Shown piece after piece: positions 23,910-35,416 of a stretch of DNA of 64,000 nucleotides (position 1 is the first letter of the stretch; each line of letters starts with the position of its first letter). The notes below the pieces were generated by a model that saw only the letters and a program-made list of their open reading frames with translations, made no database searches and was not told the origin of the DNA. The stretch comes from an uncultured Nesterenkonia sp. (lineage in GTDB: Bacteria; Actinomycetota; Actinomycetes; Actinomycetales; Micrococcaceae), in NCBI GenBank assembly GCA_947494195.1, contig CANLUC010000006.1, positions 1 to 64,000 on the forward strand. Direction: 5' to 3'. A program made the translations under genes and the position numbers.

Positions 23910-24194
23910 TCACGCGTGGGTGTAGGTCAGGCAATCTGCGTTGTCGGCTCCCGGACCGACTCGGACTTCAGGTGCACTGCACATCAGGTGCTCGTTGTGG
24001 AGGCATTCCGTGCGCTGGCAGGCCCCGACCCCGGCCAGCACCTTCGGAAGGCCACCGTCGACGCCGATGTCGATGAACGTGGCGCAGGTTGCATGGTCTT
24101 CCTGCCCGCCGACCGTGATGGCCGCGGCGTTGCAATGAGAATGATCGTTGAAGGAGCAGCTTGCAACGCTGCATTCCGAAACTTGCGTGCTCAT
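23910..24194 (-). CDS. DUF1540 Cys-rich protein, two tandem motifs
   Basis: This 94-residue protein contains two DUF1540-like units. The first has Cys in ECSVASCSFNDHSHCNA then HATCATF; the second has ACQRTECLHNEHLMCSA then ADCLTY. Each gives four Cys in a spacing suited to one small metal site. It is probably a metallothionein-like or metal-sensing protein in the cytosol. GGAGGA precedes the ATG at 24194; the longer form from 24239 lacks such a site. It stands alone between DUF2243 and the histidine kinase. Confidence 0.85.
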   Translation of the reverse strand: MSTQVSECSVASCSFNDHSHCNAAAITVGGQEDHATCATFIDIGVDGGLPKVLAGVGACQRTECLHNEHLMCSAPEVRVGPGADNADCLTYTHA

Positions 24195-24340
24195 GACAAG
24201 GATCCTCCTTGGTGTGGCCGCCCGGTTGGGCTGCTCCATGTCACCACCGTAGACCTGAAAGGGGTGATCAAAAAGGGCCAGCGGTGTGACCTAATTGGGC
24301 TCCGCCACGCAGCTCCCGCGAGGTCGACCGGGGCCAAAAG

Positions 24341-25900
24341 TCACCGGGACGGCGCTGGTTCACTCAGCGGCAGCCGCACCGTGAGCACAGTCCGGCCGGG
24401 GACGCTGTCGATGTCCACGTGACCCGCATGTGCCTGCACGATCGCTTCGACGATGGACATGCCCAGTCCGGTGCTCCCGGCGGTGCGGGATCTCGAGCTG
24501 TCACCGCGCACGAACCTGTCAAAGAGTCGGTCCTGGAGCAGAGGCGGAATCCCCGGACCGTCGTCTTCGACCTGAATCAGCGCTGAACCACCCTGTGTGC
24601 CCAGTCGAACGGTCACCACGGTTCCCGTCGGAGTGTGGGTTCGCGCATTGTTCAGCAGATTCGCCATCACCTGGTGCAGCCGATGAGCGTCCCCGTCTAC
24701 GAGAATCTCCGCCGCGTCCTCATCAAGCTCCATCAACCAGCGATGGTCCGGGCCGGTGACCTGGGCGTCTGCACAGGCGTCGACGACGACGCCGGCCAGC
24801 GCCACCACCTCCTGCCGAAGCGGTGCCCCGGAGTCCAGACGGGCCAGCAGCAGCAGGTCTTCAACCATGACGGCCATCCGCGCGGCCTCCGACCCGATGC
24901 GCTCCAATGAACGGTCCACGTTCTCCGGCAGCGGCTCCTGCACCCGTGAGGCCAGCTCGGCGTAGCCGCTCACCGAGGCCAGTGGAGTGCGCAGCTCATG
25001 GCTCGCGTCGGCGACGAACCGTCTCAGCCGTTCCTCGCTCTCCTGGCGGACGTGCAGGGAGTCCTCCACATGGTCGAGCATCGTGTTGAAAGCCGCCCCG
25101 ACCTGGCCGGTCTCAGTATGTGCCCGGGTGTCTGCAGGTGGCAGCCGCTCGTTCAGCCGCACCGTACCGGAGGACAGGGGCGTCTGCGCCACCCGGGTGG
25201 CGGCCCGAGCGAGGCGATCCAGGGGGCGCAGTCCGAGCCGGATCAGCACCAGCGCGCCCAGCAGCGCCAGGACGATGGTCACCAGGGCGACCAACGAGAA
25301 GATCAGCACCTGATCACGGACGGTCTGGTGCACCCCGGAGAGTGACTGGCCCGCGATCACCGTGGCGAACGCATCGTCGCTGCGCACCTGCTCGGCGGCT
25401 ACGCGGTAGTCGCCCTGCTCACCGAGGTCCACTTCCTCGGGATCTTCCTCGGTGCCCTCGGCCGCTTTCAGGACAGAGATCTGATCCTCCGTCAGCTCGA
25501 CCACGGCGCCGCCGCTCTCCTCGACCACCTGAGCCACCGGCGGCTCACCATCTAGCAGCACCAGGGTGACGGATCCGCGCTGTGGGCCGGGACCGACGTC
25601 GCCCGGAGCGAATCCCTGATCACCCGGCTCCTGACTCTCAGGCGGAGTCCCGTCCTCTTCACGGCCGGGACCGCCGAAGTCACCCCGAGACTGCGCTTCC
25701 ATGAGATTCTGCGCGGAGATGTCCAACGAGATCCGCAGCTGGTCATCGAGGCGCTCCAGCAGAAACTGCCGCTGCATGCTCACACTGACGCTGCCGATGA
25801 TCACCACTGCGGTGATCAACAGGGCCACGATGCTGGCGGCCAGCTGGCGACGCAGCGGCCACTGGCTCACCCGGGCCAGCCCGCGCAGTCGCTCACGCAT
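24341..25900 (-). CDS. Sensor histidine kinase of the DUF4956/VTC operon
   Basis: This 519-residue membrane kinase has TM1 (about 20-40), an acidic extracytoplasmic domain of about 150 residues rich in Gly/Glu/Asp, TM2 (about 195-215) and HAMP. The H-box FVADASHELRTPLASVSGY carries the phospho-His, followed by N-, G1- and G2-boxes (NLLNNARTH, VEDDGPGIP, GSTGLGMSI). Signal: unknown, sensed outside the cell. Its start overlaps the response regulator by 8 nt and it is the last gene of a five-gene operon. The acidic sensor could bind cations or basic ligands (inference). Confidence 0.93.
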   Translation of the reverse strand: MRERLRGLARVSQWPLRRQLAASIVALLITAVVIIGSVSVSMQRQFLLERLDDQLRISLDISAQNLMEAQSRGDFGGPGREEDGTPPESQEPGDQGFAPGDVGPGPQRGSVTLVLLDGEPPVAQVVEESGGAVVELTEDQISVLKAAEGTEEDPEEVDLGEQGDYRVAAEQVRSDDAFATVIAGQSLSGVHQTVRDQVLIFSLVALVTIVLALLGALVLIRLGLRPLDRLARAATRVAQTPLSSGTVRLNERLPPADTRAHTETGQVGAAFNTMLDHVEDSLHVRQESEERLRRFVADASHELRTPLASVSGYAELASRVQEPLPENVDRSLERIGSEAARMAVMVEDLLLLARLDSGAPLRQEVVALAGVVVDACADAQVTGPDHRWLMELDEDAAEILVDGDAHRLHQVMANLLNNARTHTPTGTVVTVRLGTQGGSALIQVEDDGPGIPPLLQDRLFDRFVRGDSSRSRTAGSTGLGMSIVEAIVQAHAGHVDIDSVPGRTVLTVRLPLSEPAPSR

Positions 25901-26621
25901 CGGCGGCCCTGATGGAATACCCGACCCCGCGGAACGTGTGGATCATCGGCGGGCCCAACCGGTCGATCTTTTTGCGGAGGTAGGAGATGTAGAGCTCGAC
26001 CACGCTGGCCCTGCCCCCGAAGTCGTACTCCCAGACCCGGTCGAGAATCTGTGCCTTGCTCAGCACGGTCCTGGGGTTCTCCATCAGGTAGCGCAGCAGC
26101 GCGAACTCGGTGGCGGTGAGCTCGATCCGCGTCCCCTCGCGAGTGACCTCGTAAGTCTCCTCGTGGAGCAGCAGGTCACCGACCACGAGCACCGGGTCCC
26201 CAGGGCCCGTGGTCAGCACGTGGCGGCGGATCATTCCACGGAGCCGCAGCATGACTTCTTCGAGGCTGAAGGGCTTGGTGACGTAGTCGTCCCCGCCGGC
26301 GCTGAGCCCCGCGATCCGGTCCGAGACGTCATCCTTCGCAGTGAGGAACAGCACCGGGACCTGGTTGCCCTGGGCTCGCAGTCGGGTGACCATCTCGATG
26401 CCATCGATTCCAGGCATCATCACGTCAAGGACGACGACGTCGGGGCGCACCTCGCGCACGGCCTTCAGCCCTTCCTGGCCGTCAGCAGCGATATACGGTT
26501 CCCAGCCCTCGGATTTCGCCGCCATGGCGAGAAGCTCGCTGAGCATCGGTTCGTCATCGACGACCAGCACCCGGATGGGCGTCCCATCCGGGTGCGTGAC
26601 GTTGTGCAGGTCCATATCCAT
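25893..26621 (-). CDS. OmpR-family response regulator
   Basis: This 242-residue protein has a receiver domain (VVDDEP acid pocket, phospho-acceptor Asp in VVVLDVMMPG, Lys in LTAKDD) and a C-terminal winged helix (TATEFALLRYLMENPRTVLSKAQILDRVW ... VVELYISYLRKKID). It is the partner of the overlapping histidine kinase. It begins 3 nt after the lipoprotein stop, so it belongs to the same operon. The GCTATG repeats in front of the operon, spaced by 11 bp steps, are its likely binding site. Confidence 0.95.
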   Translation of the reverse strand: MDMDLHNVTHPDGTPIRVLVVDDEPMLSELLAMAAKSEGWEPYIAADGQEGLKAVREVRPDVVVLDVMMPGIDGIEMVTRLRAQGNQVPVLFLTAKDDVSDRIAGLSAGGDDYVTKPFSLEEVMLRLRGMIRRHVLTTGPGDPVLVVGDLLLHEETYEVTREGTRIELTATEFALLRYLMENPRTVLSKAQILDRVWEYDFGGRASVVELYISYLRKKIDRLGPPMIHTFRGVGYSIRAADA

Positions 26622-26624
26622 AAT

Positions 26625-28544
26625 CTACTGCTCGAACTCGGTCTCACCGGGCGCGATGCCCTCGGGTGCGCCCGGCATGCCGCCACCCTGACCGGTTCCC
26701 ATGCCTCCGGCAGGTGCTTGACCCGCGACCGCCTCGATCGCTGACTCGGCGGTCTCCACGCTGTAAGTCTCCCCGGCGGTGACGGTGTCATCGCTGTAGA
26801 AGATGTACCCGTACTCCTTGGTCGGGGTGACACTGCCCAGCTCCGTTCCGGACGCGTCGAGCACGGTGGCGGACTCCTCGGCAGCGCCAGTCGCGGAGGC
26901 GGCAACCCAGCCCTGGTCGCCGGAGGCCGGGGTCTGTTCCATGCTGCCTGCCGAGGACCCCACCACGGTGCCCCCGTCGATGCTGAACTCTCCATTGGCG
27001 TCGAAGGCACCATTGCCGCCCCATGTGGTGCCGAAGACACGGGTGGCGCCGCCGGTGACCTGCAGTGTGCCGTTGGAATCGATGCCATCACCCTCGGCGT
27101 CGACCGTCAGGGTGCCCCCACTGATGATGAGCTCGGAGCCGTCGTCGCCCATCTCACCGCCCATGCCTGCCCCTCCGCCGGGCTGAACCTGCTCAGTGGT
27201 CTCCGTCGTGTCCGTGGTCTCCGCCGATTCGGCGTCGTCTGCGGCTTCTGATTCAGCGTTGAAGGAGGCGTTGAGCCCGTCATCGCTGGCGGTGACGTCG
27301 ATGTTCCCGTCTTCGATGAACAGATAGCTGGCCTCGAGGCCCTCATAGGACTCGGTCACAGTCACGGTGGCTCCATCGATGGTCAACGTGTGCTCGGCGT
27401 GGGCCCCGTCATCGCCCGTGGCCGCGGTGATCATGCCGGAGCTCAGCTGGATGGAGCCATCGGAGTGCAATGCGTCATCAGCGGAATCGGTAGCGGTCTC
27501 GCCGCCGTCGACCACCAGAAGCACTCCGGCCTTCAGGCCCTTGGAGGAAAGGTCCTCCACCGGGGCCACGGAGGCACCGCCCCCGGAGACGATGTCCAGG
27601 GTGCCACCGCTGATCAGCAGGTCCGAGGCCGCATCGATCCCGTCCTGCTCTGCGGTCAGGTTCAGCGTGCCGTCAATGATGAGCACGTATCCGCGGTCGG
27701 CGTCGTCCTCGTTGTTAGATCGAAGCGCGTCTCCGCCGGCGTCCACAGTGAGCGTGCCGCCGGCGACGACGAGCGCGTCCTTTCCGCGAAGACCATGACC
27801 CGCGGCGGTGACCGTGATCTCTCCGGAGCTGACCACCAGGTCCTTCTTCGTGGCGATGCCGTCCCCGCCCCGGCCGGTGACCTCGAGCGCCCCGCTGCCG
27901 GTGATCTGCAGATCGGTGTCGGCGAAGATCGCGGCGTCTTCCTCGGCATCCTCGGCATAGGACTCGGCGTCGGCCACCGTGTTCGTGGAACCCTCGGCGA
28001 GTTCGATGTTCACTCCATCGGCGCTGGTGAGCAGGATGGCCGGGCCGGCGTCGTTGGTGATGGTGGCTTCATCGAGGATCAGGGTCACCTGGTCCTCCTC
28101 GTCTGCTGTTACGGCGACCTGGCCCTCCAGGCTGCCGGAGATCCGGTAAGTTCCGGCTTCGGTGATGGTGACGGTGCTGTTTTGAACGGTCACCGACTCG
28201 CTCTCGGTCGAGGCGGTGTCACCGTCGAGGGTGATGCTCTGGACTTCGGTCTCAGCAGCGGCGCCGTCATCGGCGGTCCAGTAGTCGTGATTCTCGGTCA
28301 TGGCAGCCTCGGTGTCTGGGCCAGAACCGGCGGAATTCTCGGAGGTCGGATCATCAGAGGCTTCGGTGGAGCTGCCCTCAGTGGACGAGGCCGGGGTCGT
28401 CTCCTGCTGTGAGGTCGAGGAGGCGGCTTCGGCGTTCTCGGTGGTGGGCAGGGCGCAGCCGACCAGAAGGGAGAGCGTGCTGGCCGTCGCAGCGGTGGCG
28501 AGGAAGATGCGAGTGCGCGGGGTGCGTGAGGCGGTGGTGTTCAT
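26625..28544 (-). CDS. Cthe_2159-like carbohydrate-binding beta-helix lipoprotein
   Basis: This protein of about 639 residues has a signal ending at the lipobox LLVGC (Cys30), an acidic Ser/Thr-rich linker, then many repeats such as SGGTLTVDAEGDGIDSNGTL that resemble the Cthe_2159 right-handed beta-helix family (calcium and polygalacturonate binding in the type member). An acidic, low-complexity insertion (ESEAADDAESAETTDTTET) lies around residue 445. The C-terminus is Gly/Pro/Met-rich. It should sit on the outer membrane face. The ATG at 28544 overlaps the VTC gene stop, and AAGGA precedes it. The ligand here is unknown. Confidence 0.82.
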   Translation of the reverse strand: MNTTASRTPRTRIFLATAATASTLSLLVGCALPTTENAEAASSTSQQETTPASSTEGSSTEASDDPTSENSAGSGPDTEAAMTENHDYWTADDGAAAETEVQSITLDGDTASTESESVTVQNSTVTITEAGTYRISGSLEGQVAVTADEEDQVTLILDEATITNDAGPAILLTSADGVNIELAEGSTNTVADAESYAEDAEEDAAIFADTDLQITGSGALEVTGRGGDGIATKKDLVVSSGEITVTAAGHGLRGKDALVVAGGTLTVDAGGDALRSNNEDDADRGYVLIIDGTLNLTAEQDGIDAASDLLISGGTLDIVSGGGASVAPVEDLSSKGLKAGVLLVVDGGETATDSADDALHSDGSIQLSSGMITAATGDDGAHAEHTLTIDGATVTVTESYEGLEASYLFIEDGNIDVTASDDGLNASFNAESEAADDAESAETTDTTETTEQVQPGGGAGMGGEMGDDGSELIISGGTLTVDAEGDGIDSNGTLQVTGGATRVFGTTWGGNGAFDANGEFSIDGGTVVGSSAGSMEQTPASGDQGWVAASATGAAEESATVLDASGTELGSVTPTKEYGYIFYSDDTVTAGETYSVETAESAIEAVAGQAPAGGMGTGQGGGMPGAPEGIAPGETEFEQ

Positions 28545-29344
28545 CGGATTCCTTCGAGTTGTGTGGAGCGCAGCGTCTGGTGGAGCACGCGGCTCCATTT
28601 ATTGGCGGGCAGGTCCGGGCGCAGAGCCGCGAGCCCGGTGGAGTACTTGGAGATGGAGACCGGGCGGATCCCGTGGGACCACAGGAGCCGGTCGAAGGAG
28701 CTGGCCCGACTGGCCGATTTGGTCTCGATGATCGCCAGATCAGGGCGGTCCAGCGCGGTGGTGCAGTCGTTGCGGGGAGGCAGCGCCCAACGCAGCTCGG
28801 TGTCGATGGTCAATCGGGAGACGGCGCCTGCCGGGCCTTCGCGGAGCACCAGGGTGATGCGGTCGTAACCGGTGCTGAGACTGGGGGCCAACGACCAGGC
28901 GAGGTCGCCGGAAAGGCCCACGCTGGACAGGACTTCGCCTGCGTAAGTGCGAGCCTCAGGGTTCAGGCTGCTCATCGCGTGGAGATCGTGCGGGATGCGC
29001 TCCTTGACTGTGGTGCCGCGGGAGCCTTTGGTCTTGGCTTCAAGGAACGCGATGCCCGAATCGACATAGGCGCGGGTGCGCAGCTTGAATCGTCGGCGCC
29101 GACCGCGGGCAGCCCGGTGGTAGGCGACCAGGTCGGGGGTGTCGAAGTAGACAGATTCATAGCTGAAGCTGCGCCGTGCATCGATCTGCAGGATCTGCGT
29201 GCGCGGGTCCAGCCAGGTGTCCAGTAGTTCTGGGACTTCGCGGGGGACCAGGTACTTGCGGTCGACCCGGGTCTGCAGCTCGGCCTGCGCATTGATCGCT
29301 TGCAGCGTGATGGGGGCGAGGTCGCCGGTCCAGGAGAGTGTCAT
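28541..29344 (-). CDS. VTC-domain polyphosphate polymerase-like protein
   Basis: This 267-residue soluble protein matches the VTC domain of eukaryotic Vtc4: RVDRKYLV near residue 26, basic strands FKLRTRAYVDSG, FLEAKTKGS, and a C-terminal LAIIETKSAS followed by SISKYSTGLA. In Vtc4 this tunnel fold makes polyphosphate from ATP at the membrane. Bacterial members are mostly uncharacterised, so the activity is inferred. It overlaps both neighbours by 4 nt, with DUF4956 before and the lipoprotein after, which points to a membrane complex. Confidence 0.88.
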   Translation of the reverse strand: MTLSWTGDLAPITLQAINAQAELQTRVDRKYLVPREVPELLDTWLDPRTQILQIDARRSFSYESVYFDTPDLVAYHRAARGRRRRFKLRTRAYVDSGIAFLEAKTKGSRGTTVKERIPHDLHAMSSLNPEARTYAGEVLSSVGLSGDLAWSLAPSLSTGYDRITLVLREGPAGAVSRLTIDTELRWALPPRNDCTTALDRPDLAIIETKSASRASSFDRLLWSHGIRPVSISKYSTGLAALRPDLPANKWSRVLHQTLRSTQLEGIR

Positions 29345-29991
29345 CGCTGGGCGCTCGCGTCCTGGCGCAGACTGTTGCGGACCGCCGTCTGGTACTGGGC
29401 GTAGTTGCTCTGCTCATCGGACTGCGGAGCGTAGACGCGGCTGCTGCTGTCTGGACGGTGCCAGCGGACATCCACGGTGGTGGTGTCATTGACCACGTCC
29501 AGTTCGGTCACCTCCATCACCTTCACCGTGCCGCCGAGCAGCTGCTCCACATGGGCCCGCAGGGACGACTCATCGATGAAGGCCCTGTCGAGGCGCAGCG
29601 ATTGCTGCCGGGCACGGGAGAGCAGCATGGGGGAGTCCACGATCGCGAGCATGGTCAGGATCAGTGCGATCAGGCTGATGCTCAGCAGCGGCTGCAGGGT
29701 GTCGAACCCGGCGATCAGCCCGATGGCCAGCGAGGCGAAGTAGTAAGCCACCTCGTGCTGGGAGATCTCGGAGGAGCGCAGTCGGATGATGGAGAGCACC
29801 CCGAAGAGACCAAGGCCCACCCCCATTCCGATCTCGGCGCTGGCCAGCACTTTGGTGACCGCGAGGACGCCGATGTTGACCACCACAAAGGCCGTGACCA
29901 GGTCGCGACGGCGGTGACGGCGGAAGTAGAGGGCATAGGCAAGGACGACGACGGCGACAAGGTCGACCGCTATCAACATCAGACTGGTCAT
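29341..29991 (-). CDS. DUF4956 membrane protein
   Basis: This 216-residue protein has four or so membrane helices in its first 120 residues, including the conserved GVGLGLFGVLSIIRLRSSEISQHEVAYYFASLAIGLIAG, then a soluble C-terminal domain of about 90 residues (ACT/ferredoxin-like beta strands, VMEVTELDVVNDTTTVDVRW). DUF4956 proteins are often paired with VTC-type polymerases and CotH or beta-helix surface proteins. It is the first gene of the operon and could anchor the VTC subunit or carry polymer across the membrane (inference). Confidence 0.88.
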   Translation of the reverse strand: MTSLMLIAVDLVAVVVLAYALYFRRHRRRDLVTAFVVVNIGVLAVTKVLASAEIGMGVGLGLFGVLSIIRLRSSEISQHEVAYYFASLAIGLIAGFDTLQPLLSISLIALILTMLAIVDSPMLLSRARQQSLRLDRAFIDESSLRAHVEQLLGGTVKVMEVTELDVVNDTTTVDVRWHRPDSSSRVYAPQSDEQSNYAQYQTAVRNSLRQDASAQR

Positions 29992-30042: not shown

Positions 30043-30081
30043 GCTATGACTCAGCTATGGATGGCGCAGGGTCAGGCTATG
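30043..30081. promoter_or_regulatory. In-phase GCTATG repeats upstream of the DUF4956 operon
   Basis: GCTATG occurs at 30043, 30054 and 30076, that is at offsets 0, 11 and 33, all on one face of the helix. The first and third copies extend to GCTATGAC. The block is 52-90 nt upstream of the DUF4956 start. OmpR-family regulators bind direct repeats with this 10-11 bp step, so this is the likely site of the operon's own regulator. Confidence 0.55.
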
Positions 30082-30245
30082 ACTTGCAGAGCAGGCGTCC
30101 AGGATGTATCCAGCTGCAAATATGTTCTTGCTCGGGAAAGGCTGTTGCAGTCAGACATATATGGGGTTCAATGATCGGGCTCACATTCAGCGTCGTCGGC
30201 CGCCCCATCCGATGACCGCAACGCACTACCCACGAAGGACGTGAC

Positions 30246-34552: not shown

Positions 34553-35416
34553 TCAGGACCGTCCGCGGGCCTGGTTCAGCTGGGTCTGCTCCGCGGCGTA
34601 CAGCGCCGCCCCGACGATCCCGGCGTTGTTCTGCAGTCCGGCGACCTCCACCTTCGCGCGCAGGTCCGTGACATGCGGCAGGAAGTCCTCGCTGCGCTTG
34701 GAGATCCCGCCGCCGATGATGAACAGCTCGGGGGACTGCAGCCGCTCCACGTGTTTCAGGAATCGGTTCAGGAGCTTGCCGTACTCGTCCCAGGGCATGT
34801 CCGCGCGTTCGCGCGCAGCGGCGGATGCCTTCTTCTCCGCCACCTCGCCCTCGAACTCCAGGTGACCCATCTCGCTGTTGGGGACCAGCACGCCGTCGTG
34901 CACCAGAGCAGAACCGATTCCTGTGCCCAGCGTGATCGTCATGACCGTGCCCTCCAGTCCCTTGCCTGCTCCATACCGGGCCTCAGCAAGACCCGCGCCG
35001 TCGGCGTCGTTCAGGGTGTGGATTTGGCCGGGCAGATGCTTCAGCAGCGCGGCGGCGTCGGTGTTGATCCAGGACTCGTCGATGTTTGCCGCGGAGAGCA
35101 CGATGTTCTTGTCCACGATCGCCGGGAACAGCACGCCGATCGAGAGCTCGGACTCCGCGGGGGCCTTCTCCCGACCAAGCAGCTCCTCGAGGATCTGGCC
35201 GATGACCTCGGCCACCGCCTCCGGGGTCGCCGGCTTCGGGGTGGGGATGCGGAAGCGCGCACCGGTCAGCGTGCCCTTGTGCAGGTTGACGATCCCGCCT
35301 TTGATGCCGGTGCCGCCCACGTCGATGCCGATGGCCCGCTTGGGCAGATCCGAGACGGTCTCGCTGGCAGGGGCGACGGCCTGGGCAGCCAGCGGCTGCT
35401 CGTGAGAAGAGCTCAT
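34553..35416 (-). CDS. ppgK: Polyphosphate glucokinase
   Basis: This 287-residue ROK-fold kinase phosphorylates glucose using polyphosphate (and usually ATP). IGIDVGGTGIKGGIVN is the phosphate-1 motif, HTLNDADGAGLAEARYG holds the catalytic Asp, and MTITLGTGIGSALV plus NSEMGHLEFEG follow. SKRSEDFLPHV is also typical of actinobacterial PpgK. The N-terminal 25 residues are a polar extension. It is interesting beside the VTC-like gene elsewhere in the window, since both concern polyphosphate. Confidence 0.95.
   Translation of the reverse strand: MSSSHEQPLAAQAVAPASETVSDLPKRAIGIDVGGTGIKGGIVNLHKGTLTGARFRIPTPKPATPEAVAEVIGQILEELLGREKAPAESELSIGVLFPAIVDKNIVLSAANIDESWINTDAAALLKHLPGQIHTLNDADGAGLAEARYGAGKGLEGTVMTITLGTGIGSALVHDGVLVPNSEMGHLEFEGEVAEKKASAAARERADMPWDEYGKLLNRFLKHVERLQSPELFIIGGGISKRSEDFLPHVTDLRAKVEVAGLQNNAGIVGAALYAAEQTQLNQARGRS

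Follow-up and report, generated by a model that had tools for sequence, protein, structure and literature searches.

In the yeast VTC complex, Vtc4 is the polymerase and Vtc1 the membrane channel. In streptococci, clostridia and bifidobacteria, a set of DUF4956, polyphosphate polymerase and CotH genes is found alongside pel operons (PMC7112168), and deletion of the DUF4956-like or the CotH gene alters Pel level and aggregation (PMC12345266; SIR_1592–1594). Taken jointly, the two papers suggest that SIR_1592 is the DUF4956 protein. Here we analyze an operon of Nesterenkonia, five genes packed on the minus strand at 24341–29991 of a 64,000-nucleotide stretch of contig CANLUC010000006.1 (the window), which encode a DUF4956 membrane protein, a VTC protein, a predicted Cthe_2159-type lipoprotein, a response regulator and a histidine kinase. 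The initial annotation of this DNA called the set poorly described in bacteria, which is fair but incomplete, since publications on Pel loci describe the DUF4956–polyphosphate polymerase–CotH set (PMC7112168, PMC12345266). The module is real and conserved, and it most likely encodes a synthase of the polyphosphate type that has a new membrane partner.

The VTC Protein Retains the Mapped Tunnel Residues of Vtc4

The VTC protein matched the Vtc4 structure 3g3q by profile (E 1.6e-20), and its structural model has the TTM β-tunnel fold, with Vtc4 and not hydrolases as the best structural matches. For mapping we used, besides the reported catalytic residues, K200, K281, K294, R361 and R373 of Vtc4, which we take to be further tunnel residues. 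The catalytic tunnel residues of Vtc4 include R264, R266 and E426 (PMC9911596) and K458 (PMC4641920). In the window protein, R89, R91, E207, K233, K30, K104, K114, R162 and R177 align with Vtc4 and are invariant in 57 sequences. Thus, the mapped tunnel residues, on whose retention the initial annotation had staked its polymerase assignment, are all kept, and alignment and model together indicate that the protein is likely a polyphosphate polymerase.

The same comparisons bear on a different possibility, that the VTC protein is a TTM phosphohydrolase or triphosphate sensor, DUF4956 an MgtC-like membrane regulator, and no polymer is made. D28 is acidic and fits one position of the acidic patch of TTM hydrolases, whereas R26 and K209 are basic as in Vtc4, to which the structural matches also point. 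The authors of PMC12345266 termed the DUF4956-like protein MgtC-like, whereas an alignment of DUF4956 with MgtC gave a weak match (hhalign probability 3.6%, P 0.012 over 40 columns). We consider this explanation quite unlikely.

DUF4956 Is Paired with VTC

For comparison, we used 112 VTC loci (16 family, 2 genus, 80 named and 13 phylum loci and the window), with 6.5 kb around VTC as the neighborhood, as well as a phylum sample of 119 genomes and a control set of 14 genomes. The named loci are the best 80 of at least 572 confirmed relatives of the window VTC, and this sample is biased because it holds the best of a longer list of relatives.

DUF4956 occurs in 13 of the 119 phylum genomes and VTC in the identical 13; independent genomes would give identical sets with a chance of ∼1e-17, but related genomes are not independent. 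All 14 DUF4956–VTC pairs in this sample are adjacent on one strand, 7 of them with DUF4956 leading and 7 with VTC leading. VTC also adjoins DUF4956 in 16 of 16 other family loci, DUF4956 adjoins VTC in 2 of 2 other genus loci, and both families were found in the same three control genomes (Bacteroides ihuae, Corynebacterium glutamicum and Methanosarcina acetivorans). Of the 112 loci, 111 have DUF4956 within 6.5 kb of VTC. Adjacency with free gene order fits a physical complex, and we infer that DUF4956 and VTC form one. A literature search for DUF4956 together with VTC gave no match.

The module is patchy, with VTC in 3 of 30 genus genomes and DUF4956 in 15 of 61 family genomes (own genome included in both counts); among the matches listed, the nearest named relatives of the window VTC and DUF4956 are from Nesterenkonia halotolerans and N. 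lutea. Two Actinomyces loci each carry two tandem DUF4956–VTC pairs (L117 6752–10846 and L110 9239–12848). A 193-aa metagenome protein on a 786-base contig (P0124) combines DUF4956 and HisKA domains, perhaps through chimeric assembly.

The DUF4956 model (pLDDT 86.7) has five long helices in its N-terminal part and a ferredoxin-like domain at its C terminus. Basic residues occupy the loop between helices 1 and 2 and the point where helix 3 ends, and all 57 of 57 sequences compared have R70 and R72. The positive-inside rule would place the C-terminal domain and the basic loops on the cytosolic side. No whole-fold relative was found in the PDB at an E value of 0.001; a family not listed could still match.

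With respect to polyphosphate physiology, PPK1 (PF02503) gave no match in the genome that contains the window, and the same model matched in 7 of the 14 controls. The genome has two PPK2 matches, and a polyphosphate-glucose phosphotransferase is encoded 4.6 kb from the operon (34553–35416, minus strand; NCBIfam NF045942, 293.9 bits vs. a cut-off of 250). Because of these PPK2 and polyphosphate glucokinase matches, the bacterium plausibly uses polyphosphate, of which VTC may be one source.

Operon Organization

Coordinates and sequence confirmed the layout reported in the initial annotation, including its junctions. Overlaps of 4 nt join DUF4956 to VTC (29341–29344) and VTC to the Cthe_2159 gene (ATGA, 28541–28544), a 3-nt gap (26622–26624) precedes the response regulator gene, and the latter overlaps the kinase gene by 8 nt (25893–25900) (Table 1). 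The identical single-strand order is found in six others of the 112 loci, from three families (L032, L039, L060, L079, L092 and L120). Given this recurring order and the DUF4956–VTC adjacency, the five-gene arrangement is more than chance. The genes are probably transcribed as one unit. The hairpin 3′ of the kinase gene is weak, as 3 such sites were found vs. 1.8 expected. Directly after the operon lies a gene for a DUF1540 protein (23910–24239, minus strand), a relative of which (L023 12884–13297) adjoins a DUF4956–VTC locus with a two-component pair.

Table 1. Coordinates of the operon and associated features in the window
Feature	Position	Strand	Basis
DUF4956 membrane protein, 216 aa	29341..29991	-	PF16316 195 bits, E 8e-58
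VTC/TTM protein, 267 aa, predicted polyphosphate polymerase	28541..29344	-	PF09359 98 bits, E 7e-28
Cthe_2159 beta-helix protein, 639 aa, lipobox LVGC	26625..28544	-	PF14262 288 bits (cut-off 25.8), E 6e-86
OmpR-family response regulator	25893..26621	-	Pfam; nearest solved relative PhoP of M. tuberculosis
Histidine kinase, HisKA/HATPase with HAMP, variable extracytoplasmic linker	24341..25900	-	Pfam
PhoP-box-like operator, predicted, three CATAGC copies	30043..30082	-	Repeat pattern; kept in G072 (L039)
Terminator-like hairpin 3′ of kinase gene	24276..24291	-	Hairpin scan

A Cthe_2159 or CotH Protein Accompanies Most Pairs

The third gene product is a member of the PF14262 family, matches 4peu in sequence (E 6e-33) and is strongly acidic, with 115 D+E vs. 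12 K+R in the 612 residues from the lipobox onward. Within 6.5 kb of VTC, 73 loci have Cthe_2159 only, 21 have CotH only, 1 has both and 17 have neither, such that a Cthe_2159 protein or CotH kinase is present as third gene in 95 of the 112. The association of the lipoprotein with DUF4956–VTC that was first noticed in the window thus recurs in related genomes, in 74 loci with the window included. A lipobox-like start is present in 60 of the 74 strong Cthe_2159 hits, and the last 450 residues are net acidic in all 74. Because the Cthe_2159/CotH labels change at least seven times on a rapidly built VTC tree, in which many forks are unresolved, the two proteins seem to replace each other. Nine of the 17 loci with neither form a separate clade on this tree. 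In four loci, a small membrane-anchored protein is encoded next to a different two-component pair and DUF4956–VTC (L021 13322–13813, L022 6069–6464, L027 6200–6589 and L029 13301–13723); three of these four proteins have a poly-aspartate tail, those of L021, L022 and L027, which belong to the clade with neither protein.

Related Sets Adjoin Glycan Synthases

The occurrence of related sets beside glycan synthases, in three contexts, makes a surface-glycan module the main rival explanation: DUF4956–VTC with CotH or Cthe_2159 would phosphorylate or regulate an exopolysaccharide or glycolipid, and free polyphosphate would not be exported. The first context is that of the pel operons, with the effects of DUF4956-like and CotH deletions on Pel and aggregation described above (PMC7112168, PMC12345266). 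Second, 35 of the 112 loci have an NAGPA phosphodiester glycosidase gene within 6.5 kb of VTC, and a GT2-GtrA glycosyltransferase gene is present in all 35. In the third, L135 (2605–9033), DUF4956–VTC–CotH is followed by genes for a 754-aa protein, a HEAT protein and a chitin-synthase-like GT2. The same order (CotH, 754-aa protein, HEAT, GT2) is listed for a C. perfringens locus (PMC2879425), in which the “tubulin” genes by VTC probably encode DUF4956, judged from their DUF4956-like size. Set against these contexts, a scan of window genes around the operon revealed no glycan synthase, the genome gave no NAGPA match, and the Vtc4-type residues mapped above are all kept. We regard a purely glycan-directed role as rather unlikely. 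The NAGPA and GT2-GtrA genes are mostly upstream of DUF4956–VTC on the same strand (named loci, e.g., L091 7374–8282 and L071 8251–9375).

PMC12345266 states that the three-gene arrangement is not found outside the Pel locus. In contrast, we observed DUF4956–VTC–CotH and DUF4956–VTC–Cthe_2159 sets with no pel gene among the scanned neighbors. In the genome of the window, pel genes were looked for only among the scanned genes that flank the operon, which include none, and at CotH-type loci no pel-named family was found among the 20 of 104 listed large neighbors that were scanned.

The Regulator Pair and the Upstream Repeat

Compared with solved relatives, the response regulator scored 249 bits (E 4e-73) with PhoP, 185 with PrrA and 161 with MtrA. 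PhoP recognizes repeats of 7 bp, with the sequence TCACAGC in the solved complex, that must be spaced by 4 bp, and it can stack further (PMC4832192); acid activation of PhoPR has been reported in mycobacteria (PMC10715180). Upstream of DUF4956 are three CATAGC copies (TCATAGC 30076–30082, CCATAGC 30054–30060 and TCATAGC 30043–30049) with spacings of 22 and 11 bp. The two-copy pattern occurs once in the window without mismatch, vs. 0.05 expected with at most one mismatch. The motif core was picked after viewing the window and G072, and these two provide no independent support.

A generalized repeat score of at least 13 of 14 was obtained for 60 of 148 module upstream regions, compared to 10 of 986 other upstream regions. 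Periods other than 11 bp gave 0–3 of the 148 module regions, and scrambled motif cores (up to 40 scrambles) an average of 3.7 and at most 34 of them. By locus, the repeat is present upstream in 48 of 109 (42 of 77 named, 2 of 2 genus, 3 of 16 family and 0 of 13 phylum loci, and the window, 1 of 1). Scores of at least 13 were found for 12 of 43 regions in pair-linked loci vs. 51 of 119 in unlinked loci, and for 7 of 560 random stretches. The repeat is thus as common without a linked pair, so we rejected it as a mark of regulator-linked loci; where the pair is not linked, the regulator would act in trans. An earlier, looser count gave 12 repeats in 355 kb of pair loci (Markov expectation 1.9) and also 39 in 1836 kb of other loci, such that looser counts alone do not separate the two. 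Two further candidates were discarded: a CTTAG variant in Microbacterium pair-linked loci, present in too few regions (3 of 148), and a genome-wide regulon, for which the own genome held five exact matches to the looser pattern vs. two for the reversed control, with only the DUF4956 site convincingly placed. We predict that the PhoP-like regulator controls the operon, in which case it would bind the upstream repeat.

The orthologous regulator–kinase pair is linked in 15 of the 112 VTC loci, window included; the kinase therefore recurs near DUF4956–VTC as well, more rarely than the lipoprotein. The initial annotation had also proposed that an acidic sensor domain of the kinase senses the product of the operon, and this part found no support. 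The Gly/Pro/Asp/Glu stretch is a kinase linker whose length and sequence differ among the 18 orthologues compared, for which reason the acidic loop was rejected as a conserved sensor, and orthologous kinases are present in three genus genomes without VTC. In two of these (L125 12490–13650 and L126 12211–13340), the pair is next to Tat genes and a dioxygenase gene (by Pfam in L125, by resemblance in L126), and an 11-bp-phased repeat of the same kind, weaker in L126, lies upstream of the dioxygenase gene. Because the pair sits by these genes, with the repeat upstream and VTC absent, it is modular.

Such findings raise the possibility that a general envelope system of the PhoPR type lies here as a passenger, which would agree with the VTC-free genomes, with linkage in 15 loci only and with a repeat not tied to linkage. 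The same five-gene order in six other loci of three families and the PhoP-box-like repeat upstream of the operon argue against this, and we deem it improbable.

Proposed Function

We tentatively favor, at somewhat less than even probability, a PhoP-controlled polyphosphate-type synthase with DUF4956 as its predicted membrane partner and a product shown at the surface. The Vtc4-like tunnel enzyme would make polyphosphate, or a close phosphate polymer, from cytosolic ATP. DUF4956 would pass the polymer through the membrane, standing in for the membrane part of yeast VTC, and its basic loop RRHRRR together with R70/R72 would lie at the cytosolic mouth of the exit. Outside, the Cthe_2159 lipoprotein would retain the polymer through bridging cations such as Ca2+. 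The PhoP-like regulator would control the operon, being encoded within it here and acting in trans where the repeat lacks a linked pair. Some loci weigh against this proposal and slightly lower our confidence in it: L046 (9782–12504), the one exception among the 112, has VTC and Cthe_2159 and no DUF4956 in its 20.7-kb locus, to which the search of that genome was confined, and the promoters of all eight pair-linked Microbacterium loci score only 10–12, which speaks against PhoP-type control there.

A broader version of the proposal is possible but doubtful. In it, DUF4956 would be the missing membrane subunit of a PPK1-independent prokaryotic VTC synthase-translocase, the exported polyphosphate would serve as phosphate donor for CotH (ATP being scarce outside) or be pinned to the wall by the calcium-binding Cthe_2159 lipoprotein, and a PhoP-type regulator would control the system in much of Actinomycetes.

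If the proposed function is correct, bacteria own a membrane-coupled polyphosphate synthase of the yeast VTC type with a different membrane subunit, and thus a second route to phosphate polymers beside the classic kinases. DUF4956, a family of unknown function, would gain a concrete role, and it would become clear why a secreted CotH kinase or a calcium-binding beta-helix protein accompanies a cytosolic polymerase. Environmental actinobacteria would, moreover, have a phosphate polymer at their surface that is controlled by a PhoP-type regulator.

Comparison with Known Systems

Like the yeast VTC complex, the window VTC has the TTM tunnel fold and all mapped catalytic residues. Unlike it, the window proteins are without SPX and DUF202/Vtc1 domains, a Pfam scan of the VTC and DUF4956 proteins having found only VTC in one and only DUF4956 in the other, and the membrane partner is DUF4956. 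The window regulator has PhoP of M. tuberculosis as its nearest solved relative and keeps four of its six base-contacting residues (V213, E215, Y217 and Y220), whereas N212 and S216 are replaced by S and L, and the window pair, unlike PhoPR, is encoded inside a polymer operon. The upstream repeat resembles PhoP boxes in its 7-bp direct repeats with a 4-bp spacer (7-4-7) but reads CATAG more often than CACAG. The PF14262 domain is common to the lipoprotein and Cthe_2159 of Clostridium thermocellum (4peu, 4phb), a binder of calcium and acidic sugars from which the window protein differs in being a strongly acidic protein of 639 aa packed with VTC and a regulator pair. Finally, the Gram-positive pel accessory set as described in print shares with the window adjacent DUF4956 and VTC genes followed by a gene for an extracytoplasmic protein; here, Cthe_2159 replaces CotH, and the operon has its own PhoP-like two-component pair. 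Thus, the operon is a variant of the known DUF4956–polyphosphate polymerase–CotH set, with Cthe_2159 in the place of CotH.

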